A stretch of DNA of 64,000 bases from Sphingopyxis sp. HIX (GTDB lineage: Bacteria > Pseudomonadota > Alphaproteobacteria > Sphingomonadales > Sphingomonadaceae): the NCBI RefSeq assembly GCF_001468285.1, contig NZ_LNSB01000007.1:1-64000 (forward strand). Direction: 5' to 3'. Under the pieces are notes generated by a model, which was given only the letters and a program-made list of their open reading frames with translations, had not been told where the DNA came from and ran no database searches. The position numbers were made by a program, and so were the translations under genes. Below are positions 25,719-63,583 of this stretch, one piece after another. Each line of letters opens with the position of its first letter. The first letter of the stretch is position 1.

Positions 25719-28384
25719 GGGACATCCTTGTCGGTCAGATTCGTGATGATCAACGCCTCGGGGATGCGGATCGTGAAGCAGGCGCCGTGCGGTTCCTCAT
25801 TGTTGCTCGCCGCGACCGTCAGCCCCATCGCCTCGGCAAAACCCTTGACGATCGCGAGCCCCAGCCCGGTGCCATGCTTGGCGCGATCGCTGCCTTCGAG
25901 CCGGGTGAAGGTTTCGAAGACGCGCTTCTCGTTGCCCGGCGCGATGCCGGGCCCCTGGTCGATCACCGACAATTCGATCGCATCCGCGGTGCGGCGCGCG
26001 CGGATGGTGATCGGCGTGTCCGGATCGGCATAACGCCCGGCGTTGTCGAGCAGGTTGATCAGGCAATGATGCAGCAGCACCGGGTCGACGCGGACGAGCG
26101 GGATGTTCGGCGAGATATCGACCTTGACGTCATGCCCCGCGAGCGACGCCCGCGTGTCGTGCGCGGCGCTGGCGGCGGCGTCGAACAGGTCGGTCGCCTC
26201 GACCTTCATCGGCAGCGCGCCGGCCTCGACGCGCACCATGTCGAGCAGGTTCGAGACGAAACGGTTGAGCCGCCGCGCCTCGGCCTCGATCGTCTCGGCG
26301 AGAGCGGGCGAGGGATGGCGCTGCATTTCCTGCGCCGCCGATAATATGGTGGTCAGCGGAGTGCGCAGGTCGTGGCTGACCGACGAGAGCAGCGCCGAGC
26401 GCAGCCGGTCGCGCTCGTCGATCTGGCGCGCGCGGAGCGACGCTTCTTCGAGCTCCATGCGGTCGAGCGCGATCGAGGCCTGGTCGAGCAGGCTCATCAG
26501 GAGGGGCACCTGGTCGGAGCGCACCGGCTCGCGCGCGTCGTCGCGGGTCAGCCCGAGCACCCCGAGCACCCCGCGCGTCGTGCGCAGCGGGTGGAAGAGC
26601 CAGTCCGAGGCGGTGAGCGTCGCCGATCCGCGCCCCGCGGGCTGCGCATTGTCCATCGCCCATTGCGCCGCGGCGCGTTCGATCTGTTCGAGCCGGTCCT
26701 CGGGCGGCACCGCGGCGCGCAGCGTCGGCCCGTCGGCCGAGGGCAGCAGAATCACCGTGCGCACGTCGAGCAGGCGCCCGACCTCGGCGCAGATCGCCTG
26801 CATCAGCGCGTCCTGGTCGGGCGCGGCGGTGAGCAGCCGCGAGAAGCTGGCGAGCGCGGCGTTCTGGCGCGCGCTCGACTGGGCGAGATCGGCTTGCGCG
26901 CGCACGCGCGCGGCGAACTGGCTGGTGACGATCGCGACGCCGAGCAGCACGAGGATGCTGATGACATTTTCGGGGTTGTTGACCGTCAGCGTGCCCGTCG
27001 GCGGCAGGAAGAAGAAATTATAGGCGAGGCTCGATGCGAGCCCCGCGAACAGGCCGGCGCGGAGGCCAAAGGTCGCCGCCGCAAACATCACGGGGACGAG
27101 GTAGAGCAGCGAGATATTGCCGAGGTCGATGACCTCGATCAGCAGGCGGCCGAGCGCGGTCATCGCGGCGACCATCGCGAGCGACCAGATATAGTCCGAC
27201 GGCGTGCCCCAGCGCCCGGGGGCGGCGACCGCGCGGCGCCCGGCGGCCTTCGCCTCGGGCTCGCCGGGCAGGACGTGCACCGCGACATCGTCGATCATGC
27301 GTACGAGCTGGTCGACGACCGAGCCGTGGCGCATCTCGAACCACCAGGGGCGCGCTGACTTGCCGATGACGATCTGCGTCGCGCGAGCGTCGCGGGCGAA
27401 CGCCTGCAACCCCTCGACGACGCTCGCCGCCGGCACGGTCGCGGTCGAGGCGCCGAGCCGCGACGCGAGCGCGAGCGTGTCGGCGAGCTGCCTGCGGTCT
27501 TCGTCGGTCAGCGACTGGCTGCGCCGCGTCTCGATATAGACCGCGGTCCACGGTGCGCGCAGCGCATCGGCGAGTCTTTTCCCCGCCCGCACGAGTTCGG
27601 CCGCCACCGGCAGTTCGCTGACCGCTACGACGATGCGCTCGCCCACCGCGAAGCTGCCCGCGAGCGCGTGGCTCCGGACATGGTCGAGCATTTGGGCATC
27701 GACCGCCTGCGCGGCGCGGCGCAGCGCCAGTTCGCGCAGCGCAGTGAGGTTCGATTTCGAGAAAAAATGCGTCAGCGCGCGCGTCGCTTCCTGCGGGATA
27801 TAGACCTTGCCGTCGCGCAGCCGCTCGATCAGTTCGTCGGGCGGGATGTCGACGACCTCGATCTCGGCATTTTCGAGGATCGAGTCGGGCACCGTCTCGC
27901 GTACGCGGACCCGCGTGAACGACGCGACGACGTCGTTGAGGCTCTCGACATGCTGGATGTTGAGCGTCGAATAGACGTCGATGCCGGCATCCAGCAATTC
28001 CTCGACATCCTGATAGCGCTTGGGATGGCGGCTGCCCGGCGCGTTGCTGTGCGCCAGTTCGTCGACGAGCACGAGCTGCGGCCGCCGTTCGAGGATCGCG
28101 TCGATATCCATCTCGCCCAAGCTGTGGCCCTGGTGATCGACCTCGCGCCGCGCGACGATCTCATGCCCCTCGACGAGCGCCCCGGTCTCGCGGCGGCCGT
28201 GGGTTTCGACGACGCCGATCACGACGTCGACCCCGGCCTCGCGCCGGTGGCGGCCGTCGGTCAGCATCTCCCACGTCTTGCCGACGCCGGGCGCGGCGCC
28301 GAGGAAGACTTTCAGACGCCCGCGGCCTTCCTGCGCTGCCTGGCGCAGGAAGGCCTCCGGTGATGGTCGATCCTTGTCGGTCAC
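25715..28384 (-). CDS. kdpD: Sensor histidine kinase KdpD
   Basis: An 889-residue sensor: N-terminal KdpD domain with Walker [10 protein letters not shown] at about 29-37 and [20 protein letters not shown], a universal-stress-like domain ([15 protein letters not shown]), four transmembrane segments at about 400-500, a GAF-like region, then HisKA ([11 protein letters not shown]) and an ATPase domain ([26 protein letters not shown]). Senses low K+ or turgor-related cues and phosphorylates KdpE. Overlaps both kdpC and kdpE by 4 nt. Confidence 0.96.
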
Positions 28385-51766: not shown

Positions 51767-52776
51767 TCAACGATGGTTCAGGCGGCGAGGATCGGCCTGC
51801 TCCACCTCGATCCCGGCAGCGCGCTTGCCCTCATCCATCGCACTGCGAAAGGTCAGGACGTTTTGGTCGATCCAGCCGGGCGGCGACAGCTGTCGTCCAA
51901 GAAATCCCAGCGCATCTGCCATGCGCGGCAGGAGCGATGGGCCGACATGATCGGCACCGTGTACCAGTCGATATTCGTGCGCGAGCCCGGCGTCGAACAG
52001 GATCCGGTGCAGATATTCCGCACCTTCGTAGAGATAGAGCGCGTCTTGGTCGCCGACCTCGATATAGATGCGAAGATCGAGCAATCGGCCGGGCGCAACG
52101 CTCGCGATCGTCGCGGGATTATTCGCCGCCCAATAGCCCCGATCGACGGGGTTGCCGAACATCGGACGCAAGGCGCGCTCCGGCCGCCAGAAGCGCGTCT
52201 CTGTCCCCGCCCCTGTCCATTCCAGCGCCGCCTCGATCGCAGGCTCGAGCGCGATGACGCCGGCAAACAATTCAGGATGCTTGAACGCGATCCGGAGGCT
52301 GCCGAGGCCGCCCATCGATACGCCTCCGATGAAGGTCCGCTCGCGTAACACTTCGACATGCGCCGACCGGCGAACGAAGGGCAGCACATCGGAAAGGATA
52401 TAGCTTTCCCAGCGCTCGCTACTGTCGAGGAAGTCCATATAGAGCGAGCGGCGCCCGCTCGGGGTCGCGATGACGAGCGGCGGCACGCGGCCAGATGCAA
52501 TTTCGCGGTCGAAGACGCTCTTGAAGAAGAGTATATCTTTCTCGCTGCCATTCCCCCATGGAGCCAAAGAAGCAGCGGGTACGCGTCCGCGCGCGCGGCA
52601 TCATAGCCCGGCGGTTCATAGATCGCGACGCCGACATCGCCCGGCACGTTGGACGACGCCAAATTGTGAAACCCTATCGTCCCTTCGGTATCTGGCGCGG
52701 ACGCTAAGGCAGGCACGGCGACCGACGCTACCGAGCCCGTCGCAACGAGACCCGAAAACTCCCTGCGGTTCAGCAT
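51767..52776 (-). pseudogene. Tat-exported esterase (enterochelin-esterase-like), frameshifted
   Basis: Two overlapping frames together encode one alpha/beta hydrolase. The 5' part starts at 52776 with a Tat-type signal (NRREFSGL) and reaches LLLWLHGG; the 3' part (from about 52560) contains GVSMGGLGS (nucleophile Ser) and late Asp/His motifs (EVGDQD, HGADHVG). The join falls in a run of five C on the plus strand (52553-52557); one more C would restore HGGNGSEKD. So a 1-nt deletion, slippage site or sequencing error is involved. RBS GAGGGACGG. Last gene of a catabolic operon. Confidence 0.8.
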
Positions 52777-52783
52777 CCGTCCC

Positions 52784-54436
52784 TCAACGCGCGCCCGGCG
52801 CGGCGCAGCTGAAATTCCTCGCTGAAGTGGTCGAACCCCAGCCGCGGTATACTGCTTTTTTGGGATAGGAACACAGCGGCCGCTGCATTTCCACCTTTCC
52901 GGCATCGTCGCTCGCGAACTTCGTCGCGATGATGCTCTCAGGCGCCTTGCCGCCATCGGCCCAGTCGATCAGCGCCGAGAAAATGTCGTGTCCCGCGTCA
53001 TAGCCGGGCGGCTGCGGCGGGATACCGAGCGTGCCATTGAAGGCATCGGGACCGGCGCCACCGCCGCAATGCATCATACCAGGTGCGAGGAACAGGCGCG
53101 CATTATTTGCCAGATTGTCCACGCCGCCGAAATCCTTCGCATGCCGTTCGTAAAAGGCGACCGACTGCCCCGGCGCGACGAGCGTATCGGCGAGCCCATG
53201 ATAGACGATCAGCTTGCCGCCGCGGGCGGCAAATGCCTTGAGACTGCCGCGCGTCGCATCATTGACGATCGCGTCCAAACGCCGATCGACCAGCGGCATG
53301 TCGCGGTCGAAGTCAAAGCTCTTCCAGTCCCAGTCCGCGCCGAACACCCATTTGAACAGGGCGCCGAAAGGCGGTTGTTCGTTGATCGGCTTCTGGAGAA
53401 AAGCCCAGCCGAAGGTGTCGGGCATCTCGCTACCGGGCAACCAGCCGAAGTAGCTTGTCTTGCCTTCCGCGGTTCGTGGACCCGAGTAAAAAGCGCGGGC
53501 GGTCTCGACCTCAGCCGGCGTGAGACAAGCGTCGGACGCCCCGCCCTTGCAAGCGAGGACAGCGGGATCGAATGTGCAGCTCATCGGATCCGAGACGAAC
53601 CGGTCGCCCGCAAGGCCGTGCCCCTGCTTCCAGCAGGTAGCGACCGCGGCCTTGTTCAGCAGTCTGAGCTTGGTATCCGATAGCAGGCTGCCCGGCGTGC
53701 GATGCGCGGCGGCATAGTCCCATAAGACCGCGGCATGGCCCCAGGTCCGGTTCATGACCGGCGCGCCGACGAGAATCCCGTCATAGTCTTCAGGATAATA
53801 GAGCGCCTCTATGAGCCCCTGCTGTCCACCGGTCGAGCAGCCGGTGTAATAGGAGCGTTTCGCCGCCTGACCATAGAAGGCATTGGTGATCGCCTTGCCG
53901 GTGGTGGTCATGACATGGGTCGAGAGCCGTCCCCAGTCGCGCCATTTGCGGTCATGGCCTATGAGGGCATCGCCCTCCAGCGGCGTCGCGGGCGCCGTCC
54001 CGGCATCGGTCGTCGCGGTCGCAAAGCCGCGCCGCAGACCATCCGCCATCCCCGAATAGCCGCCCGCGAGTATGCCGGCGAAGCCTCCGTTGCCATTGCC
54101 ATGGAAGACGCCGGCCCATCCCTCCAATGGCAACCAGATTTCGACGCCGATGTCGGACCCGGGCGCTGAACGGACGTGCGCGACGACACGGCAGAAGCTG
54201 CGATATCCCGCCGTATCGCCGGCGATCGACGTCTCCGCCGCTTTGCCCGGCACAAGGACCGCGCTCGTTATGCTGGTGTCGGCAAGCTTGAGACCGGCGA
54301 GGCTCGCGCATCGCGCCTCGGGCGCCTCGATCGCGGACACTGCCCTGGAAACCGGCGCTTTCGCCGCAACGTTCACCGGAACCAGCGATCCCGCCGCGAC
54401 GCCCGCCAGCAGGACGATGCCAGATATCCGCCTCAT
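52784..54436 (-). CDS. Tannase/feruloyl esterase family protein
   Basis: A 550-residue exported protein (signal ends near VAAK) of the tannase family. Catalytic Ser lies in CSTGGQQG (about residue 200), with the associated Asp and His in the C-terminal region (DTLVAPGQS; MMHCGGG), flanked by family cysteines. It hydrolyses ester bonds of aromatic or related compounds. It ends 7 bp before the esterase and its start overlaps the MFS stop by one nt. Confidence 0.9.
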   Translation of the reverse strand: MRRISGIVLLAGVAAGSLVPVNVAAKAPVSRAVSAIEAPEARCASLAGLKLADTSITSAVLVPGKAAETSIAGDTAGYRSFCRVVAHVRSAPGSDIGVEIWLPLEGWAGVFHGNGNGGFAGILAGGYSGMADGLRRGFATATTDAGTAPATPLEGDALIGHDRKWRDWGRLSTHVMTTTGKAITNAFYGQAAKRSYYTGCSTGGQQGLIEALYYPEDYDGILVGAPVMNRTWGHAAVLWDYAAAHRTPGSLLSDTKLRLLNKAAVATCWKQGHGLAGDRFVSDPMSCTFDPAVLACKGGASDACLTPAEVETARAFYSGPRTAEGKTSYFGWLPGSEMPDTFGWAFLQKPINEQPPFGALFKWVFGADWDWKSFDFDRDMPLVDRRLDAIVNDATRGSLKAFAARGGKLIVYHGLADTLVAPGQSVAFYERHAKDFGGVDNLANNARLFLAPGMMHCGGGAGPDAFNGTLGIPPQPPGYDAGHDIFSALIDWADGGKAPESIIATKFASDDAGKVEMQRPLCSYPKKAVYRGWGSTTSARNFSCAAPGAR

Positions 54437-55770
54437 TATTGCCTCCCGAGAATTGATGTGTCCGCCGGGCCGGTCTCCGATTTCCGGATCAACCGGGCGA
54501 GCCAGACGAAGAGCAGCGCGGCGACGAGATACATCGGCGCCAGCGCATAATAGGCCATCCGCAACGCATGCTCGCCATGGTCGGCACGGAAATAATCGCT
54601 CGCCATACCGACGAAGGTCGGTCCTAGGCCAAGGCCGATCAGGTTCATGACGAGGAGCAGCAAGGCGCCCGAAATCACCCGGGCGCCGGGATCGACTTCG
54701 CCTTGAACGAAGGTGACCGTCGCGGGAAGAAAGAAGGAGTTGAGGAAGAGCGGCACGAACAGCAGGGCGAGCGCGGTCTCCCAGCGATCGGCAGCCGCAA
54801 AGCCGAGAAAGAATGGCAAAGCGAGGAGCAGCGAGAGCGCCGGAATGCTGGCATAGGCGGCCTTGTTCTTCACGGCGAAGCGGTCGATCAGCCGACCGGC
54901 GACGAAGATGCCGGCGCCCATTCCGAACCCGACCGCCAGCGCATACCAGATCGCGACATCTTCGAGCGTCATCCCCTTCTCGCGCATGAGGAAGAGGGTC
55001 GCAAAATTGCTGAGGCCATAGGTGATGAAGTTGGCCGCACCACTCGCCAGCGCCGCGACGGCCAAAACGCGGTTGCCGAAGAAGGCACGGATCGCCGATC
55101 CGAAGCTTTGTGCGGGAGCGGCAGTCGCCGTCGGCGCCGGCACCGGATCGAAACGGCCGCGTTCGGGCTCGGGAATGACCAGATAGACGATGATGGCGGT
55201 GAGCACGCCGATCGCACCCACCACATAGAAGGGGATGCGCCAGTCATAGGCGGCAGCCAGCGATGCGCCGAAGGCGACGCCGAGCGCCGAACCGAGTGGC
55301 GGCCCGAGATTGAAAATGCCCATGGCGGTGCCGCGCTGCTCGCGGGGATAAGTGTCCGAGATAATCGCATAGGATGGCGGCACCCCGCCCGCCTCTCCGA
55401 CGCCGACCGCCATGCGCGCAACGACAAGCTGGCCATAATTGGCGGCCATGCCGCACGCGGCGGTTGCGGCGCTCCACAGGCCGCAGGCGATCGAGAGAAC
55501 CTTTACCCGGTTCGTACGGTCCGCGAGCCACCCGACCGGGATGGCAATGAAGCAATAGAAGAGTGCGAAATAGAAGCCCGTGATCCGGCCGAGTTGGCTG
55601 TCGCTGATCTGGAGGCTGTCCTGAATCGGCTTTGCAAGGATCGATACGAGCTGCCGGTCGAGGAAGTTCAGCACATAGACGAAGCAGAGCATGCCGAGCG
55701 CCAGTCCCCGGTTGCCCGCCTCGCGGGGAACAGTGGGCGCGGCTCCGCCCCGATGTTGCATGCTGTCCAT
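54436..55770 (-). CDS. MFS transporter
   Basis: A 444-residue, 12-helix major facilitator with the motif-A segment GWLADRTNRVKVLS (between helices 2 and 3) and a second at FVAGRLIDRFAVKNK. Resembles the anion:cation/aromatic-acid-type group. Substrate uptake for the neighbouring esterases and CoA-activating enzymes is likely. Codons overlap with the tannase gene. Confidence 0.9.
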   Translation of the reverse strand: MDSMQHRGGAAPTVPREAGNRGLALGMLCFVYVLNFLDRQLVSILAKPIQDSLQISDSQLGRITGFYFALFYCFIAIPVGWLADRTNRVKVLSIACGLWSAATAACGMAANYGQLVVARMAVGVGEAGGVPPSYAIISDTYPREQRGTAMGIFNLGPPLGSALGVAFGASLAAAYDWRIPFYVVGAIGVLTAIIVYLVIPEPERGRFDPVPAPTATAAPAQSFGSAIRAFFGNRVLAVAALASGAANFITYGLSNFATLFLMREKGMTLEDVAIWYALAVGFGMGAGIFVAGRLIDRFAVKNKAAYASIPALSLLLALPFFLGFAAADRWETALALLFVPLFLNSFFLPATVTFVQGEVDPGARVISGALLLLVMNLIGLGLGPTFVGMASDYFRADHGEHALRMAYYALAPMYLVAALLFVWLARLIRKSETGPADTSILGRQ

Positions 55771-55793
55771 AAGCCTCCTCCCTTCGCTGCTCT

Positions 55794-56639
55794 TTATCCG
55801 TTCTGCACCCAGCCCGCGCGCCCCTTGCCGCCGCCCAGCCCCGCCGCGACGCGCTGTTTGAGCAGCGCCGGAGGCCTGAACCGCTCGCCATAGGCATCAT
55901 GCAATATGTCCTGCACCTGGACGCAAAGATCCGACGTGACGAGATCCATCATGGCGAACGGCCCGACCGGATGCCCGAGCCCGAGGCGGCACGCCGTATC
56001 GAGATCGGCGGGCGTTGCCACCCCTTCTTCCACGAGACGGACCGCCTCGATGAGAAAGGCGTGCAGCATACGGTTGACGGCGAAGCCGGCGACATCCTTG
56101 ATCTCGACCGGATGTTTGCCGACGCCTTCCAGCCACGCCGAAACCTGCTCGACCGCCGCGCGGTCGGTGCCGAAGGCCGGGATGATCTCGACGAGTTGCA
56201 TGCGCGATACCGGCGAGAAATAGTGGGTCCCGAGAAAGAGGGGTCGGCGCTCGGGCTGCAACGCGGCGGCAAGCGTCGATATCGGCAGCGTCGACGTGTT
56301 CGACGCGAGGATGCAGTGCGGAGCACACAGGGTGTCTAGCGTACCGAGGACAGCAACCTTGGCATCGAGCGCTTCGAACACCGCCTCGGTGACGAGATCG
56401 CGATCGGCAAGATCCGCTATGTCCGTGGTCGGCCGGATCAGGGTCAGTGCTTTATGTGCGTTATCGGCTTCATAGATTTGCCGCGATATGCCCTTCTCGA
56501 CCAGGCTGCCGAGCCGCACCATCGCGCGATCGAGGGCCTCCTCCGACAGATCGTTCAGCAGGACATCATGTCCGGCCAATGCAAACACAAGCGCGATTTC
56601 CGCGCCCATCAGCCCTGCTCCGACGACCGCGGCCTTCAT
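55794..56639 (-). CDS. 3-hydroxyacyl-CoA dehydrogenase
   Basis: A 281-residue NAD-dependent enzyme: Rossmann GAGLMGAEIALVFALAGHDV, catalytic His in LGTHYFSPV, and the dimerisation domain with DVAGFAVNRMLHAF. Oxidises 3-hydroxyacyl-CoA, e.g. 3-hydroxybutyryl-CoA to acetoacetyl-CoA. Its first codons overlap the stop of the CoA ligase gene (4 nt), 23 bp from the MFS gene. Confidence 0.93.
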   Translation of the reverse strand: MKAAVVGAGLMGAEIALVFALAGHDVLLNDLSEEALDRAMVRLGSLVEKGISRQIYEADNAHKALTLIRPTTDIADLADRDLVTEAVFEALDAKVAVLGTLDTLCAPHCILASNTSTLPISTLAAALQPERRPLFLGTHYFSPVSRMQLVEIIPAFGTDRAAVEQVSAWLEGVGKHPVEIKDVAGFAVNRMLHAFLIEAVRLVEEGVATPADLDTACRLGLGHPVGPFAMMDLVTSDLCVQVQDILHDAYGERFRPPALLKQRVAAGLGGGKGRAGWVQNG

Positions 56640-58666
56640 GCGGCATCTCCCGTCCGCCGCCAGCGCCGGGCCTGGTCGATATACCAGGGCAGAATTTCGG
56701 GCGTCGCGGTCGCGTCGGCATTGATCACCTTGGACACCGGCCAGCCGGCAAACAGTCGCTTGATGGGAAGTTCCTGCTTCTTGCCAGATAGCGTCAGGGG
56801 AATTGCCGGTGCCGCAATCAGACGATCGGGCACGAAGCGCGGCGAGAGGCTGGTGCGGATGGCTGATGCGATCGCCGCTTCGGTTTCGGTATGAAGCTCC
56901 CCTCCCTCATCGGGAACGACGAACATGATGAGCTCGCTGCCACCCGCGCCATCCTCGACATCGATGATCATCGTATCGGCAACGCCCGGCAGACCTTCGA
57001 CTGCCGCATAGATCTCGGCCGTGCCCATGCGCAGCCCGTGCCGGTTGATCGTCGCGTCGCTGCGGCCCGAGATAGTGCAGCCGCCGTCGATACCGATCGT
57101 GAGCCAGTCACCATGGCGCCAGATACCCGGCCATTCGGAAAAATAGGATTCATGGTAGCGACTTCCGTCCTCGTCGCCCCAGAAATAGAGCGGCATGCTG
57201 GGGAAGGGCCGCGCGCAAACAAGCTCGCCGACCTCGTCGATCACGGGCCGGCCGTTCTCGTCCCATGCCTCGATCGCGGCGCCGAGATGACGGCATTGCA
57301 GCCTGCCCGGCGTGTCGGGCAATTCGGGATTTCCGGCCATGAACGCGGCGGCAATTTCGGTTCCGCCGCTGACATTGCACCACCAGATGCCGGGTCGGCC
57401 GGCAGCTTCGAACTCGGCCGATCCCCAGCGCTGCACGTCGGGGGGAAGCGGCGAACCGGTACTGCCGAGTGCCCGGATTTCTCCAAGACCCCCGAGACCT
57501 GCCAGATCGAGACCCGCCTTGCGGCAACTTGCGAAAAAGGCGGCGCCGGCGCCGAACCAGGTCACGCCGCTCCGCGCGGCAAAGTCCCAGAGCCGGCTCC
57601 AGTCGGGATCGGCTTTCGTGCCGCTCGGCGAGCCGTCGAAGATGCAGATGGTCGTGCCACTGAGCAATCCGCCGACCTGGATATTCCACATGACCCAGCC
57701 CGTTGCGCTGAACCAGTGAAACCGGTCGCCGAAGTTGTTCGCGGAATAGCTCGGCCCGAGATCGAAATGGAGCCGGCCGGCGGCGGTCGCGAGGAGTACA
57801 CCGCCGTGCCCGTGCACGATCGCCTTGGGCAACCCGGTCGTCCCGCTCGAGTAGAGGATCCATAGCGGATGATCGAAGGGCAGCCACTCGGGTTCGAATG
57901 CCGCCACCGCGGCATCGGCGCGGCCGACCACCTCGGCAAAGTCGAGCGCGCCGGACACGGCAGCCGCCCCATATCCGCTGGTAACAAGGAACAATCGCTC
58001 GATACACGGCAACTCAGCGCATATTTCGGCGACGGCAGCGCTACGGTCCATCGCCTTGCCCGCATACAGGACGCCGTCGACCGCAATCAGGGCCTTGGGC
58101 TTGGTCTGCCGCAATCGGTCGAGCACCGCGCTCGTTCCCATGTCGGGCGAGCAGAGTGTCCAGATCGCGCCGAGGCTCACCGAGGCGAGCAGGCCGATGA
58201 CTGCCGCCGGAATGTTGGGCAGGTAGGCCGCAACCCTATCCCCCTTCCCTATCCCGTTCCGGCGCAGTTCAAGCGCCAGCGACGCCGCCTGCCGGCGAAG
58301 CTCAGCCCAGCTCAGCTCAACGGTGTCGCCGCGCTCGTTCATGGCGACAATCGCCGGCTGGCCGGCCTCGTCGGCTGCGGCCGCGTGCCGGAATATATGG
58401 CGCGCATAACTGACTTCGGCGCCCTCGAACCAGCGCGCGTGCGGCATGGCGTCGTCGCTCAGCACGGCGGTGAACGGTGCCGCAGATTCGATTCCATCAT
58501 AGTCCCAGATGCTGCGCCAGAAGGCTTCGAGGTCGTTCACCGACCAGCGCCGCAAATCCTCGAAGTTGGCGAACTCGAGGCCGTGCGTCGCCTTGAGCCA
58601 ATCTGAGTACAGGCGCATCTGCGGAACCGGACCCGGAGGATTTGCGCTGGTACTGGCATGAGTCAT
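56636..58666 (-). CDS. Acetoacetyl-CoA synthetase
   Basis: A 676-residue ANL-superfamily ligase: P-loop YSSGTTGLPK (about 275-284), A5 motif NVSGGTEIA, A8 hinge SGRSDATINRHGLRMGTAEIY and catalytic Lys in LSGKKQELPIKR near the C-terminus. The length and the N-terminal FWRSIWDYDGIES segment match acetoacetate-CoA ligases. It activates acetoacetate or a similar beta-keto/hydroxy acid, consistent with the neighbouring dehydrogenase. Confidence 0.92.
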   Translation of the reverse strand: MTHASTSANPPGPVPQMRLYSDWLKATHGLEFANFEDLRRWSVNDLEAFWRSIWDYDGIESAAPFTAVLSDDAMPHARWFEGAEVSYARHIFRHAAAADEAGQPAIVAMNERGDTVELSWAELRRQAASLALELRRNGIGKGDRVAAYLPNIPAAVIGLLASVSLGAIWTLCSPDMGTSAVLDRLRQTKPKALIAVDGVLYAGKAMDRSAAVAEICAELPCIERLFLVTSGYGAAAVSGALDFAEVVGRADAAVAAFEPEWLPFDHPLWILYSSGTTGLPKAIVHGHGGVLLATAAGRLHFDLGPSYSANNFGDRFHWFSATGWVMWNIQVGGLLSGTTICIFDGSPSGTKADPDWSRLWDFAARSGVTWFGAGAAFFASCRKAGLDLAGLGGLGEIRALGSTGSPLPPDVQRWGSAEFEAAGRPGIWWCNVSGGTEIAAAFMAGNPELPDTPGRLQCRHLGAAIEAWDENGRPVIDEVGELVCARPFPSMPLYFWGDEDGSRYHESYFSEWPGIWRHGDWLTIGIDGGCTISGRSDATINRHGLRMGTAEIYAAVEGLPGVADTMIIDVEDGAGGSELIMFVVPDEGGELHTETEAAIASAIRTSLSPRFVPDRLIAAPAIPLTLSGKKQELPIKRLFAGWPVSKVINADATATPEILPWYIDQARRWRRTGDAA

Positions 58667-58753
58667 CGCGTGGCGGAACCTTGTTCAAATCGCGGGTGGG
58701 ATCGGGTGTTGACCCGGCGCCGCACCCCCCGGGGCGGCGCCGAAGGCGAGACG

Positions 58754-61396
58754 TCAGAAGGCGGTTCGGAGGCTCATGGCTGCATAGCGACCGATCGCAT
58801 TATAGGTACCCCCGATGCCGTCGGTTCCCGGGAAATAGGGCGGCGTCTTGTCGAACAGATCGTTGATCTGAAGGCCGATCTCGGTGCCCTTCATAAATCC
58901 CGTATCGGGCAGCTTGACCGAAAGGCGCAGGTCCACCGTCGTGTAGCTCTTCGATTGATAAAGGCTCGTACCGGTCGGGGTTGCGAAGGAGGCGGTAACG
59001 CCGCTGCGATGATTGACGAAATTGACGAACGTCACGGGACCCGCCGTGACACCGAGCGTCGTGCGCAGCGTCGTGCGCGGGATGCCGGCGTCGAGCGAAT
59101 TGCTGACCGCCGAGGTTGGCGACAATTGGGTGCGATACTTCAGAATATAATTGCCGGCGATCCCGCCAAAGATTGTCCCAAAGTCAGCCGAATGCCGATA
59201 CCGCACGTCGAAATCGATGCCGTTCGTCTTGCGAATACCGAAATTGCCTTGGCGCAGGTCCAATATGTTGCCGATCGTCGGAACCGCCGAGAAGGTATAG
59301 AAGAAGGGAACGGTGTTCGTAATCGCGGACGTGACCTGCGCAGCGCTGGGGTCGCGGATGACCAGCGAAGCGAAGGTAGGATCGGTGAACACAAGCGCGC
59401 CGAGGCCCGACGGCGTTCCGATCACATCACGGTATCTGATGTCATAGAAAGTCGCACCGGCCGTCAGCCCCGGCGCAAAGGCCGGCTTCAGGTCAAGCCC
59501 GAACGAGAAGGTGCGGGCTTTTTCCGGCTTCAGATTCTGGTTGCCGCCGAAGAGCAGCATCGTGTTGACCTGCGTTGCCCCGCGCAAGGGATCGCGCACG
59601 CCGAAGGCGTCGACCAGCGCCGCTGCGGCATAATAGGAGCCGACAGTCGAGCCGAGGTCGCGAAGTCCGGGCGCCCGGAACGACCGGCCGTAACTGCCGC
59701 GCAAATTGACGCCTTCGACGGGTTCCCAGGTGATGCCGACCTTCGGATTGGTCGTCGAGCCGAAGTCGCTGTAATGATCGTAGCGCCCTGAGAGCGACAG
59801 GGCGAGGCTATGGGCCATCGGCCCCGCATTGCCCTCGCCGACGATCGGCACGAACAGCTCGCCATAGACCGACGCGATGTTGCGGCTCAGATCTTCCGGA
59901 AAGCCGACGCCTCCGCTCGATCCGCGCTGCATGTAGGTTTCGCGCCGATATTCGGCGCCAAGCGCGACCTTGAGATCTCCGCCCGGCAGGTTGGCCAGCG
60001 GTCCGTCGATCTTCACGGCGCCGATCCGGGTGCGCTGGCGGTTGGTGAAATCGGTCGGATTGTCGAGAATGGCGGCGACAACCGCCGGATTGGTGCGGGT
60101 ACCGAACGGGTCAAGCGCCGTCGCGGTCGTCGTGCCGGCTGCCGCTGCCGTCAGGGCGGTGGTGTTGATGCCGGGCTGGAAGGTGTCGTTTCGCGCCCAG
60201 TTAAACGTTCCGAAAACGCTGGCCTTGAAGTCGCCCGGCAATTTGATGTCGAGCCCGGCCGTGGCGTTCCCGCTCCTGACGCGGAATGTCTGGTCGAAAT
60301 GATCCGCGCCAACCAGGTTGTCGGGCCTGAAGTCGACAAATTCAAATGTCGCCCCGGTGCCTGGCGGAGCCCGGAAGAAGGGATTGGCCGCGGTGATCAA
60401 GACAAAGGTCTGCCCGGGCAGCGCAGCCTGAACGATATCCCGTCGATCAGAGTAAAGGAGATCGGCCCAAAGGGTCACGTTCGAGGACAGGTCTTGGCGC
60501 GCCGAGACGAAGGCGGCGTGGGTGCGGTTTTCCGGCACAAGATCGACCGGCCCGCGCGGGTCGCAGGTGTTGAGCCCCGGCGCCAGGCTGGGCGCAGCAT
60601 AGATCGTGCCGGTGAACAGATTGACGTTCGCATCCGGACAGACGGCCGAGCGCGTATCGACGCCGCCTGCGGCGCGGAAGTCAAGCGAGCGATACCGCCG
60701 GTCGGCGCCAGTGATATTGCTGTTCTCGGAATATTGATAGGCCGCGACAAACGAGCCGCTACCCCAGTCATGGCCGAAGATGCCGCCCGCATTGAAGGCG
60801 TGATAGTCGTCTGCGAAGCCGTAGCGGACATTCGCCTCCAATCCCGACACGCGTTTCCGGGTGATGAAGTTGACGACGCCGGCCACGGCATCCGAGCCGT
60901 AGATGGCCGACGCCCCGTCGGCGACGATCTCGACCCGCTCGATCGCGAGTTCGGGAAGAAACGGATAGTCGGGGTTGGTCTGCTGCGTACTCCCCGAGAT
61001 CAGGCGATGCCCATTCATCAGCGGCAAGGTGGCGGCAGGCGGGAGTCCGCGAAGGCCCGGCGCGAAGGATCCCAGCCCGCCATTGCTGGTACGCGGCGCC
61101 GTGTTGAAGCTGTTGAGTTGCGGGACGGTTGCGAGCAGTTCGGGGGTGCTCGCCGCGCCGATCAGCTTCGCATCCTCACGCGTGACGCCAATGAGCCCCG
61201 ACCCCGTCGGCGGGATGCCGCGAATGCTTGTGCCGGTCACGACGATTTCGGTGTCAGCTTCGCCGTCCGCGTTCGACTGCGTGCTGTCTTCGGCCGACTG
61301 GGCCCGCGCGGCCGTCGGCACGAGAAGCACCGCCGCGATTGCGGAGCCCGATAGCAGACATGCGCGGCCCGCCATGAATAGGATGTTGTTCGACAT
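58754..61396 (-). CDS. TonB-dependent receptor
   Basis: An 880-residue outer-membrane receptor: signal peptide (ends AARAQ), TonB-box-like ADTEIVVTGTSIRG, plug domain (VERVEIVADGASAIYGSDAVAGVVNFITRKR) and a barrel ending with the aromatic terminus SLRTAF. It resembles the large sphingomonad receptors for organic substrates rather than siderophore receptors. ATG at 61396 with GAGAGGA upstream. Divergent from the AraC gene; probably takes up the substrate of the esterase operon. Confidence 0.93.
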   Translation of the reverse strand: MSNNILFMAGRACLLSGSAIAAVLLVPTAARAQSAEDSTQSNADGEADTEIVVTGTSIRGIPPTGSGLIGVTREDAKLIGAASTPELLATVPQLNSFNTAPRTSNGGLGSFAPGLRGLPPAATLPLMNGHRLISGSTQQTNPDYPFLPELAIERVEIVADGASAIYGSDAVAGVVNFITRKRVSGLEANVRYGFADDYHAFNAGGIFGHDWGSGSFVAAYQYSENSNITGADRRYRSLDFRAAGGVDTRSAVCPDANVNLFTGTIYAAPSLAPGLNTCDPRGPVDLVPENRTHAAFVSARQDLSSNVTLWADLLYSDRRDIVQAALPGQTFVLITAANPFFRAPPGTGATFEFVDFRPDNLVGADHFDQTFRVRSGNATAGLDIKLPGDFKASVFGTFNWARNDTFQPGINTTALTAAAAGTTTATALDPFGTRTNPAVVAAILDNPTDFTNRQRTRIGAVKIDGPLANLPGGDLKVALGAEYRRETYMQRGSSGGVGFPEDLSRNIASVYGELFVPIVGEGNAGPMAHSLALSLSGRYDHYSDFGSTTNPKVGITWEPVEGVNLRGSYGRSFRAPGLRDLGSTVGSYYAAAALVDAFGVRDPLRGATQVNTMLLFGGNQNLKPEKARTFSFGLDLKPAFAPGLTAGATFYDIRYRDVIGTPSGLGALVFTDPTFASLVIRDPSAAQVTSAITNTVPFFYTFSAVPTIGNILDLRQGNFGIRKTNGIDFDVRYRHSADFGTIFGGIAGNYILKYRTQLSPTSAVSNSLDAGIPRTTLRTTLGVTAGPVTFVNFVNHRSGVTASFATPTGTSLYQSKSYTTVDLRLSVKLPDTGFMKGTEIGLQINDLFDKTPPYFPGTDGIGGTYNAIGRYAAMSLRTAF

Positions 61397-61501: not shown

Positions 61502-61529
61502 CGGACAACGATGTGTCTTTAGCGGACAA
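61502..61529 (+). promoter_or_regulatory. CGGACAA direct repeats, candidate AraC operator
   Basis: Two CGGACAA copies (61502-61508 and 61523-61529) are 21 bp apart start to start, two helical turns, between the divergent TonB-receptor and AraC start codons. AraC-type dimers typically bind such paired sites. The motif recurs inverted at 62680. Confidence 0.5.
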
Positions 61530-61547: not shown

Positions 61548-62621
61548 ATGTCGATTGTCGACCCGCAGATAGGGGCTGGGACCAGCAGCACGCGCGCCGG
61601 TTTTCCTTCGCTGAACCAGCGAATCTTTGCGCCTTTCAAGTTGGCGACCGTCATTGAGGCCGTCGCCCGCCGCGGCATCAAACCCGAGACAGTTCTGGAT
61701 CGTACGGGATTGACACTCGCGGATGTACGCGATCCCCACACACTGACCTCGATCGGCCAATATCTGGTTGCGTGCGAAAATATCGTCGCCGCGGGCGCTC
61801 AATTCGGCGACGCATTCGAAATCGGGTCGCGGCTCCATCTTTCGGCCTACGGCATGTATGGCTACGCGCTGATGTGCTCGCCGACGATGCGCGAGTTCTT
61901 CGACTTCGCTGTGCGATACCAACCGCTCGCCACGCCGACGGTGAGGCTGGGGTGGCGGACGGAAGGCGCGTTCGCGATCTGGCGTTTTGAGGAAATCTAT
62001 CGCGACGTCATGAGCAACGAGGTCCGGACCTTCCTCGTTCGCCAGCAGATGAAGATGACCTACACCCATATCCGGGACACCTCCGGGGCGGACAATTTGC
62101 CCGTGCAGGCGATATTCGCTTTGACCGAAGACGGGCAGACATCCGCCGACGAACAGGCCTTGTCCTGCCCCTGTTCCTATGGACAGGATGCCAACGAACT
62201 TCATTATCCGATCGGAATTCTTGAGCAGACGCCAGAACTCGGCAACCGGCTCACAAGAGCGATGCTCGAAGAGACTTGCGACCGGCTGATTGGCCAGTCG
62301 CGGATCGCATCGGGATTGTCCGGCGAGGTCTATCAGCTCCTGCTGCTCGCCCCGAACCAGTCGGCCTCAATGACCTCGATCGCGGAGCAGCTGGGATTGC
62401 AAGAGCGAACCCTGCGCCGTCGGCTCGCCGCAGAAGACACGAGCTATGGCGAAATCGTCGATGATGTTCGCCGCAAGCTTGCGATCGAGTATCTGCAGAC
62501 CACCCGGATGAGCGTCGACGACGTCGCCTGGAAAGTCGGCTTCAGCGACAGCGCGAACCTGCGCCGTGCCGTCAGGCGATGGACAGGAAAGACCATCAAC
62601 CAAGTCCGCGCGGAGCGATGA
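61548..62621 (+). CDS. AraC family regulator with arabinose-binding-like domain
   Basis: A 357-residue regulator with an N-terminal Arabinose_bd-type domain (AVARRGIKPETVLDRTGLTLADVRDPHTLTS) and a C-terminal AraC HTH (MTSIAEQLGLQERTLRRRLAAEDTSY, KLAIEYLQTTRMSVDDVAWKVGFSDSANLRRAVRRWTG). OruR/ArgR-like group. ATG at 61548 after a GAGAGAGAG stretch; longer frame upstream overlaps the promoter region. Likely controls the divergent TonB-receptor and esterase genes. Confidence 0.9.
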   Translation: MSIVDPQIGAGTSSTRAGFPSLNQRIFAPFKLATVIEAVARRGIKPETVLDRTGLTLADVRDPHTLTSIGQYLVACENIVAAGAQFGDAFEIGSRLHLSAYGMYGYALMCSPTMREFFDFAVRYQPLATPTVRLGWRTEGAFAIWRFEEIYRDVMSNEVRTFLVRQQMKMTYTHIRDTSGADNLPVQAIFALTEDGQTSADEQALSCPCSYGQDANELHYPIGILEQTPELGNRLTRAMLEETCDRLIGQSRIASGLSGEVYQLLLLAPNQSASMTSIAEQLGLQERTLRRRLAAEDTSYGEIVDDVRRKLAIEYLQTTRMSVDDVAWKVGFSDSANLRRAVRRWTGKTINQVRAER

Positions 62622-62788: not shown

Positions 62789-63583
62789 ATGTGGACCCGC
62801 AGGCATCGACCGCCGGCTATTCTCGGCGATCATATTCGCTTCTTTGCGGAGCGAACTGCTGAACTTGGCGATCAATCCTTATCGGTGCCGCTTCCCGCCC
62901 GTGTCGATCAGTTGATCGAGTTCTATCTCGAAGATCGATATCTGGTTTCACGCGATGGCAGGCCTGCCGGTCCCGCTCCTGAGTTGGCGATAGTGGGGCC
63001 CCAAGGTCGTCCCGGTACTTGGCTCCACCTTTCTGGCTCCCTGAAAGTCTTCACCATCCACTTTCAGCCTGGTGGGCTTAACGCGCTGTTTGGCATCGCG
63101 ACAAGCGAGCTTACCGATCAGGGTGTCGAAGCTCAGAGCCTCATCGGACGAAGTGCCGACCATCTTCGCGACGACCTCATGCAGGCTGAAGATTTTGCGG
63201 AGCGCGTCGACGCCGCGCAGCGCTGGCTGGTAGACCGCATGAGTAGTGCGAAGCCTGTCGACATCGTTGCGCGGATCGCGAGAGCGGTCATCGAATCGGG
63301 AGGTCTCCCGCCCGTCCGTGAGTTCGCAAGACAGACAGGCCTCAGCGATCGCCAGTTTTCGCGGCGGTTTGAACATCAGACCGGCCTCGCGCCAAAGGTC
63401 TTTGCCAGGGCCGTGCGTTTCGGTGCGGCGTTAGAAGCCAAATCCGAGGCGCCGGAACGAAGCTGGACCGACATAGCCTATGAGGCGGGATATGCGGATC
63501 AGTCCCACTTGATCCGGGACAGCCGACAGCTGGGCGGCGCGCCGCCGCGAAGATTTTACGCCGACTGGTCCGCCGTTCCATGA
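62789..63583 (+). CDS. AraC family transcriptional regulator (DUF6597-type N-terminus)
   Basis: A 264-residue regulator with an N-terminal beta-rich domain (LSVPLPARVDQLIEFYL, FTIHFQPGGLNALFG) and an AraC HTH domain (PPVREFARQTGLSDRQFSRRFEHQTGLAPKVFARAVRF, WTDIAYEAGYADQSHLIRDSRQLGGAPP). Ligand unknown. Expression may be linked to the adjacent catabolic operon or to the SnoaL-like gene downstream. Confidence 0.88.
   Translation: MWTRRHRPPAILGDHIRFFAERTAELGDQSLSVPLPARVDQLIEFYLEDRYLVSRDGRPAGPAPELAIVGPQGRPGTWLHLSGSLKVFTIHFQPGGLNALFGIATSELTDQGVEAQSLIGRSADHLRDDLMQAEDFAERVDAAQRWLVDRMSSAKPVDIVARIARAVIESGGLPPVREFARQTGLSDRQFSRRFEHQTGLAPKVFARAVRFGAALEAKSEAPERSWTDIAYEAGYADQSHLIRDSRQLGGAPPRRFYADWSAVP

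Follow-up and report, generated by a model that had tools for sequence, protein, structure and literature searches.

A conserved TonB-linked operon of Sphingopyxis sp. HIX that may catabolise esters of short (S)-3-hydroxy acids

Closest described systems

TonB-linked catabolic operons combine a receptor, an exported hydrolase, an inner-membrane carrier, cytosolic enzymes and a specific regulator, and most of them serve the use of glycans or aromatic compounds. The same set of components is found in a six-gene cluster of Sphingopyxis sp. HIX, located at 51767-61396 on the minus strand of the stretch analysed here (the first 64,000 nucleotides of contig NZ_LNSB01000007.1, assembly GCF_001468285.1; hereafter the window), but its cytosolic end is ketone-body-like, with an acetoacetyl-CoA synthetase (AACS)-like ligase and a 3-hydroxyacyl-CoA dehydrogenase (HAD). 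The host genome comprises 4.87 Mb in 90 contigs, and the closest named relatives of the window genes belong to Sphingopyxis and other sphingomonads. The best overall explanation, to which we assign a probability of about 0.5, is that this operon catabolises esters of a short (S)-3-hydroxy acid.

Each of the encoded proteins has described relatives. The esterase shares with the PF07519 enzymes AoFaeB (3wmt), FoFaeC (6fat) and MHETase (6qga) the sequence family, the predicted fold (Z scores of 36-43) and the CS-D-HC residues, yet it is 27-32% identical to them over the model and has AACS and HAD as operon partners, and its own clade (at least 58% identity) includes none of the solved relatives found. 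The ligase has the SGGT and MWN motifs in common with acetoacetyl-CoA synthetase (TIGR01217; S. lividans AACS, 4wd1), but differs from the canonical enzymes in forming a clade of its own next to the proteobacterial AACSs of families f48 and f14. The HAD has the same two Pfam domains and the same Ser/His/Glu/Asn active site as the (S)-3-hydroxybutyryl-CoA dehydrogenase/PaaH family, whereas it reaches the cut-off of none of the 23 NCBIfam families listed (best score 246 bits; cut-off 508) and reads HYFSP where the family has HFFNP. The carrier, a major facilitator superfamily (MFS) protein, has 6e8j as its best PDB sequence match, followed by the spinster homologues SPNS1 and SPNS2, from which it differs by its placement in a catabolic operon. 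The gene combination was not found in the open-licence PMC literature searched; the parts are ordinary one by one, and together they look like a pathway that has not yet been worked out.

Organization and conservation of the operon

From 61396 down to 51767, the minus strand encodes a TonB-dependent receptor (58754-61396, 880 aa; PF07715 and PF00593), the AACS-like acid-CoA ligase (56636-58666, 676 aa), the HAD (55794-56639, 281 aa), the Spinster-type MFS transporter (54436-55770, 444 aa; PF07690), a tannase/feruloyl-esterase-fold esterase (52784-54436, 550 aa; PF07519) and a PF00756 esterase that is frameshifted in the present record (51767-52776). Profile matches bear out the identities that a sequence-only reading of the window had given to all six genes. 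Successive genes are separated along the coding strand by 87 bp, a 4-bp overlap, 23 bp, a 1-bp overlap and 7 bp, and the cluster, bracketed by an operator-like repeat and a terminator-like hairpin, is very probably a single operon. The hairpin (51576-51543, minus strand), which has a 15-pair stem and a T-rich tail, is likely to mark the operon end; the pattern scan that detected it returned 10 sites against a mean of 8.4 in shuffled sequences, and its stem is the longest of the ten. A scan for sigma-70-type promoters was uninformative (2 found, 2.2 expected), and a tRNA scan found none near the cluster.

A scan of genome contigs for relatives of the tannase-type esterase revealed 21 loci (L004-L024), 16 of which also contain an AACS (L004-L015 and L017-L020, but not L016 and L021-L024). 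Together with the window and six loci from the order (L034-L039), this yielded 23 AACS loci that were compared within the stretches examined, their flanking genes being mostly read by eye rather than annotated singly. All of them have a TonB receptor, an AraC-type regulator and an ester hydrolase. The tannase-type esterase is present in 21, L034 and L035 having a type-B carboxylesterase instead; an MFS homologue occurs in 20 (missing in L018, L019 and L036) and HAD in nine. The order AraC, receptor, AACS, MFS and tannase-type esterase recurs in other sphingomonads, and a rearranged unit is found in Caulobacter and Phenylobacterium.

The association was further examined in an even draw of 196 Sphingomonadales genomes, including that of the host, with thresholds of E 1e-80 or better for a tannase match, E<1e-200 for an orthologue and E 1e-120 or better for AACS. 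A tannase match was present in 11 genomes, six of which have an orthologue of the operon esterase, and AACS in seven. AACS was detected in five of the six orthologue-bearing genomes versus 2 of the 190 others (Fisher p 5e-8, shared ancestry ignored), and in these five the pair always lies inside a span of 3.6-10.1 kb. The sixth genome (G039) contains locus L033, which has the esterase, MFS and HAD genes and a different ligase but no AACS. In the two genomes with AACS and no esterase orthologue (G067 and G079), AACS lies between a pair formed by a TonB receptor and cl9reg, a second AraC-type regulator, and a pair formed by MFS and a type-B carboxylesterase, so that all seven AACS genes of the draw sit in loci of the operon kind. 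The gene association is far from chance. A general linkage of AACS and tannase-family genes was considered and rejected: at the thresholds applied to a set of 398 genomes from the phylum, AACS is present in 85, a tannase-family gene in 43 and both in 16 (as read from two tables), and the two genes lie within 20 kb in only three (G000, G019 and G047, all from the family of the window), the next closest pair being 68 kb apart. The link is therefore particular to the locus family of the operon. No consistent partner was observed in 17 further AACS-bearing regions (L048-L050 covered only in part), 12 of which adjoin the operon clade in the ligase tree, and no plasmid-borne orthologue was found, the seven matching plasmid records reaching at best 38% identity. 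It is highly probable that the cluster is a conserved, specifically regulated ester-catabolic operon.

Ligase and dehydrogenase

The ligase scores above both curated AACS cut-offs (TIGR01217, 651.2 versus 520.9 bits; NF002937, 846.9 versus 639 bits) and is the sole gene product of the genome above that of TIGR01217. In a tree of 55 rows, none of which is biochemically known, the 23 operon AACSs form one clade with a long stem and support of 100/100. They join the 12 AACSs of families f48 and f14 in a 35-row group (100/100; 87/64 for the 12 alone), and the canonical AACSs are far away. The long branches L054 and L057 fall elsewhere in the tree, to which 15 of 20 further loci contributed a row and L070, L071, L073, L074 and L077 did not (gene caller, thresholds). 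Given this separate and well-supported clade, acetoacetate is not established as the substrate of the ligase. For the comparison of residues between groups, the rows L054, L057 and L075 were left out; the canonical group comprises 14 rows. Near the acyl pocket, M326, W327, N328, G434 and G435 are common to the operon clade and the other groups, whereas the clade differs from the canonical group at positions 325, 373, 374, 376, 428 and 429, with A/G/A at 373, 374 and 376 versus mostly T/S/K. S. lividans AACS itself has Ala at 376, so that position 376 alone proves nothing. The position of the Trp that we take to limit acetyl-CoA synthetase to acetate is Gly in the operon ligase, as in canonical AACS.

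The HAD matches PF02737 (187.5 bits) and PF00725 (91.6 bits), has 3-hydroxybutyryl-CoA dehydrogenases as its best PDB matches, and contains S-N-T-S at 113-116, H139, E151 and N189, the Ser, His, Glu and Asn of which we take to be active-site residues. Enzymes of this family work on (S)-3-hydroxyacyl-CoA, i.e., they are L-specific. HAD was found in ten loci (the window, L004, L011, L013, L015, L017, L019, L020, L033 and L036), and in all ten its start overlaps the end of the ligase gene, by 4 bp in eight loci and by 8-10 bp in L036 and L019 (as judged from the called start). The overlap persists in L033 even though the ligase there is not an AACS; its best NCBIfam matches are models of long-chain-fatty-acid and 3-(methylthio)propionyl-CoA ligases, and it reaches the cut-off of none of the 25 shown. 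Such a constant overlap, kept even with another type of ligase, suggests that the product of the ligase is the substrate of the HAD, probably an (S)-3-hydroxyacyl-CoA. In addition, neither an acyl-CoA dehydrogenase nor a hydratase is encoded among the six genes of the window operon, and the acid should thus enter at the 3-hydroxy or 3-oxo level. Near the second type of ligase, L033 has a short-chain dehydrogenase/reductase (SDR) whose best PDB match is a (3R)-hydroxyacyl-CoA dehydrogenase and which has a 72% identical homologue in L007; L005 has the second ligase type and no such SDR within the stretch examined. In mammals, a CoA ligase is reported to activate L-3-hydroxybutyrate (PMC8359440).

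L005 (15042-20531) and L007 (13827-19367) also have an adjoining operon-like set, consisting of a TonB receptor, a type-B carboxylesterase, a ligase-type gene of the fatty-acyl/3-(methylthio)propionyl-CoA ligase type and a TetR-like gene, which may possibly represent a sister ester pathway.

Esterases

The tannase-type esterase matches PF07519 over the entire profile (1-490 of 490; 284.7 bits versus a cut-off of 29.8) and carries the catalytic residues C200, S201, D417, H456 and C457 of the CS-D-HC motif. S201, D417 and H456 are invariant in a comparison of 21 esterase sequences, and C200 and C457 are present in at least 90% of them. The predicted model (predicted local distance difference test score of 83.7) has feruloyl esterases as its closest structural matches (Z 42-43, 27-30% identity), followed by MHETase (Z 36-37, 31-32%) and A. 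niger tannase (Z 31.7, 20%); a 3-hydroxybutyrate-oligomer hydrolase is not among the listed structural matches of the model, an absence that carries no exclusion value. Contig C37 of the same genome carries another PF07519 gene (approximately 26358-27758), a distant relative with 26% identity to the operon esterase.

The PF00756 esterase is split in the present record, with its N-terminus in one frame and its catalytic part in another. It is intact in L004 (338 aa) and L005 (336 aa) and also unbroken in L018, L019 and L036. The sequence past the frameshift has a ratio of nonsynonymous to synonymous substitution rates (dN/dS) of 0.16 against both L004 and L005, which implies that the frameshift is either of recent origin or an artefact of sequencing. 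The gene appears to be dispensable, being disrupted in the window, shortened in L039 (156 residues matched) and undetected in most related loci. The two exported esterases of the sequence-only reading are thus reduced to one whole gene and one frameshifted gene, and their export is probable from N-termini judged by eye, which resemble a signal peptide in the PF07519 esterase and a Tat signal in the PF00756 esterase. Several versions of the operon have a type-B carboxylesterase in addition to, or in place of, the tannase-type esterase (L009:8133-9842, L033:7233-8879 and L036:11237-12943; family PF00135 confirmed on the L036 copy).

Synonymous divergence (dS) between L004 and the window is patchy, with 0.06 for HAD, 0.12-0.20 for the AraC, ligase, receptor and MFS genes and 0.41-0.46 for both esterases, a pattern that would fit a recombinational exchange of the esterase end. 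Distant tannase homologues in Burkholderiales (L022:6651-9266) and Acidobacteriales (L024:16253-19276) lie near homologous gene pairs. In L024 these code for an AtuA protein (PF07287) and a transporter of the CitMHS type, and at L114, a further Acidobacteria locus, AtuA occurs together with a type-B carboxylesterase.

Regulation

The AraC-family regulator (PF12625 and PF12833) is encoded divergently from the operon at 61548-62621 on the plus strand, outside the range for which AraC control had been proposed. Between it and the receptor gene, at 61503-61528 on the minus strand, lies a direct repeat in which TGTCCG occurs twice at 21-bp spacing, with TGTC..GACA inside the first copy. The repeat is kept across an alignment of 16 intergenic regions between AraC and receptor genes, as are short stretches around CTTAC and CAAG-CGGC nearer the receptor gene; the remainder varies. 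Allowing up to two mismatches, the pattern has one site in the whole genome, at the operon, and the reversed control none. The conserved repeat and its single genomic site favour AraC control, and the AraC protein probably binds the repeat as a putative operator. A homologue of the AraC protein of the window is present in 18 of the 23 AACS loci, and the other five have only cl9reg, the domains of which were determined on L017 alone. The AraC gene of the operon is directly followed by another gene of AraC type (62789-63583, plus strand), which encodes a DUF6597 N-terminus and whose homologues were not listed near other operons in tblastn.

Proposed pathway and alternative explanations

According to the preferred explanation, the TonB receptor would take up the substrate, a small ester or an oligo-ester, into the periplasm, where the tannase-fold esterase would cut it, aided in relatives by the PF00756 esterase or the type-B carboxylesterase. 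The Spinster-type carrier, presumably working in the inward direction, would move the freed acid into the cytoplasm, where the AACS-like ligase would convert it to a CoA thioester, the HAD would oxidise the (S)-3-hydroxyacyl-CoA to a 3-ketoacyl-CoA, and a thiolase encoded elsewhere would split the latter. AraC would sense the acid and act at its own operator. We infer here every substrate as well as the induction of the operon by AraC. The path had previously been called complete: uptake, hydrolysis and CoA activation are supported by conserved gene content and gene overlaps, but the six-gene unit has no thiolase. That the released acid is a short 3-hydroxy or 3-oxo acid, as the earlier suggestion of a beta-hydroxy or beta-keto acid had it, has roughly even odds, gaining from the ligase-HAD overlap and from the SDR in two loci and losing from the separate AACS subfamily and the HAD-less loci; that it is (S)-3-hydroxybutyrate itself is rather doubtful.

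Several observations weigh against this explanation. HAD is absent from 14 of the 23 AACS loci, in which a housekeeping enzyme might substitute for it, and the esterase of L016 is 61% identical to that of the window yet stands without any partner gene. The nearest solved kin of the esterase, by sequence and by fold, act on aromatic esters, and the long-stemmed ligase clade with its pocket-region differences implies that the acid may be another one. The genome also encodes a 3-hydroxybutyrate dehydrogenase and a CoA-transferase subunit, so that acetoacetate could be metabolised without the operon AACS. Finally, a candidate link to acetoacetate through L024, where a type-B carboxylesterase, two tannase homologues, SCOT A and B and a thiolase lie in a row, was rejected: matches occur in 110 of 299 genomes of the class, and among 20 further Acidobacteria loci taken from the higher-scoring matches (some of which were left out), with about 8 kb on each side or less where the contig ended, none has SCOT, AACS, HAD or thiolase (tblastn, E 1e-25).

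An unlikely alternative is that the operon scavenges (R)-3-hydroxybutyrate oligomers or acetoacetate freed from polyhydroxybutyrate by other organisms, the esterases cutting the oligomers, the 3-hydroxybutyrate dehydrogenase of the genome oxidising the monomer and AACS activating acetoacetate. That dehydrogenase is above its cut-off (TIGR01963, 371.3 versus 307.05 bits; contig C50), the CoA-transferase subunit is of the SCOT type, and the HAD-less loci fit such a route; polyhydroxybutyrate oligomers are a possible substrate. However, the route would leave unexplained a dehydrogenase of an (S)-specific family whose gene overlaps that of the ligase and yet would go unused, AACS could duplicate the CoA transferase, and the only PF10503 match in the genome, a candidate polyhydroxybutyrate-depolymerase-type esterase, is weak (34 bits) and partial. 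The supported 23-row clade, the pocket differences such as A/G/A at 373, 374 and 376 and the different ligase type in the same slot of L033 would all suit a re-specialised AACS-family enzyme for some other small acid, for instance one with a branched or unsaturated chain from an ester of plant or fungal origin, with HAD on a side branch; with the canonical Gly at the presumed acetate-limiting position and the overlap in ten of ten HAD loci speaking against it, this too appears improbable. Uptake of aromatic esters of the feruloyl or gallate type, with the CoA enzymes processing the side chain, is very unlikely. It has in its favor the family and fold of the esterase and a distant Streptomyces homologue (L023, 39%) beside a cluster that resembles ring-cleavage genes (by eye, from N-termini), but the operon ligase is of the AACS family and no aromatic-acid ligase or ring-cleavage enzyme was recognised among the genes making up the 23 loci, the outer genes being judged by eye only. 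Esterase family apart, no operon gene points to aromatic acids, and aromatic esters accordingly seem a less likely substrate.

Significance

Esters of a short (S)-3-hydroxy acid remain our preferred substrate, and a fuller version of this explanation may be put forward tentatively, with the odds somewhat against it. The operon would then represent an undescribed pathway of sphingomonads and caulobacters in which such esters enter through a TonB receptor and are cut by an esterase with the tannase fold and a new specificity, and in which a re-specialised AACS and its dedicated (S)-dehydrogenase convert the freed acids to a 3-ketoacyl-CoA. Some relatives would in addition have a parallel (R)-branch, formed by the other ligase and an HSD17B4-like SDR. 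If this is true, a clade of tannase-fold enzymes and a clade of AACSs would have new specificities relevant to the hydrolysis of polyesters and to fine chemicals, and a substrate would be assigned to a bacterial Spinster-type carrier. It would also mean that the hosts of the operon use an environmental ester that has not been linked to them in the open-licence PMC literature searched.

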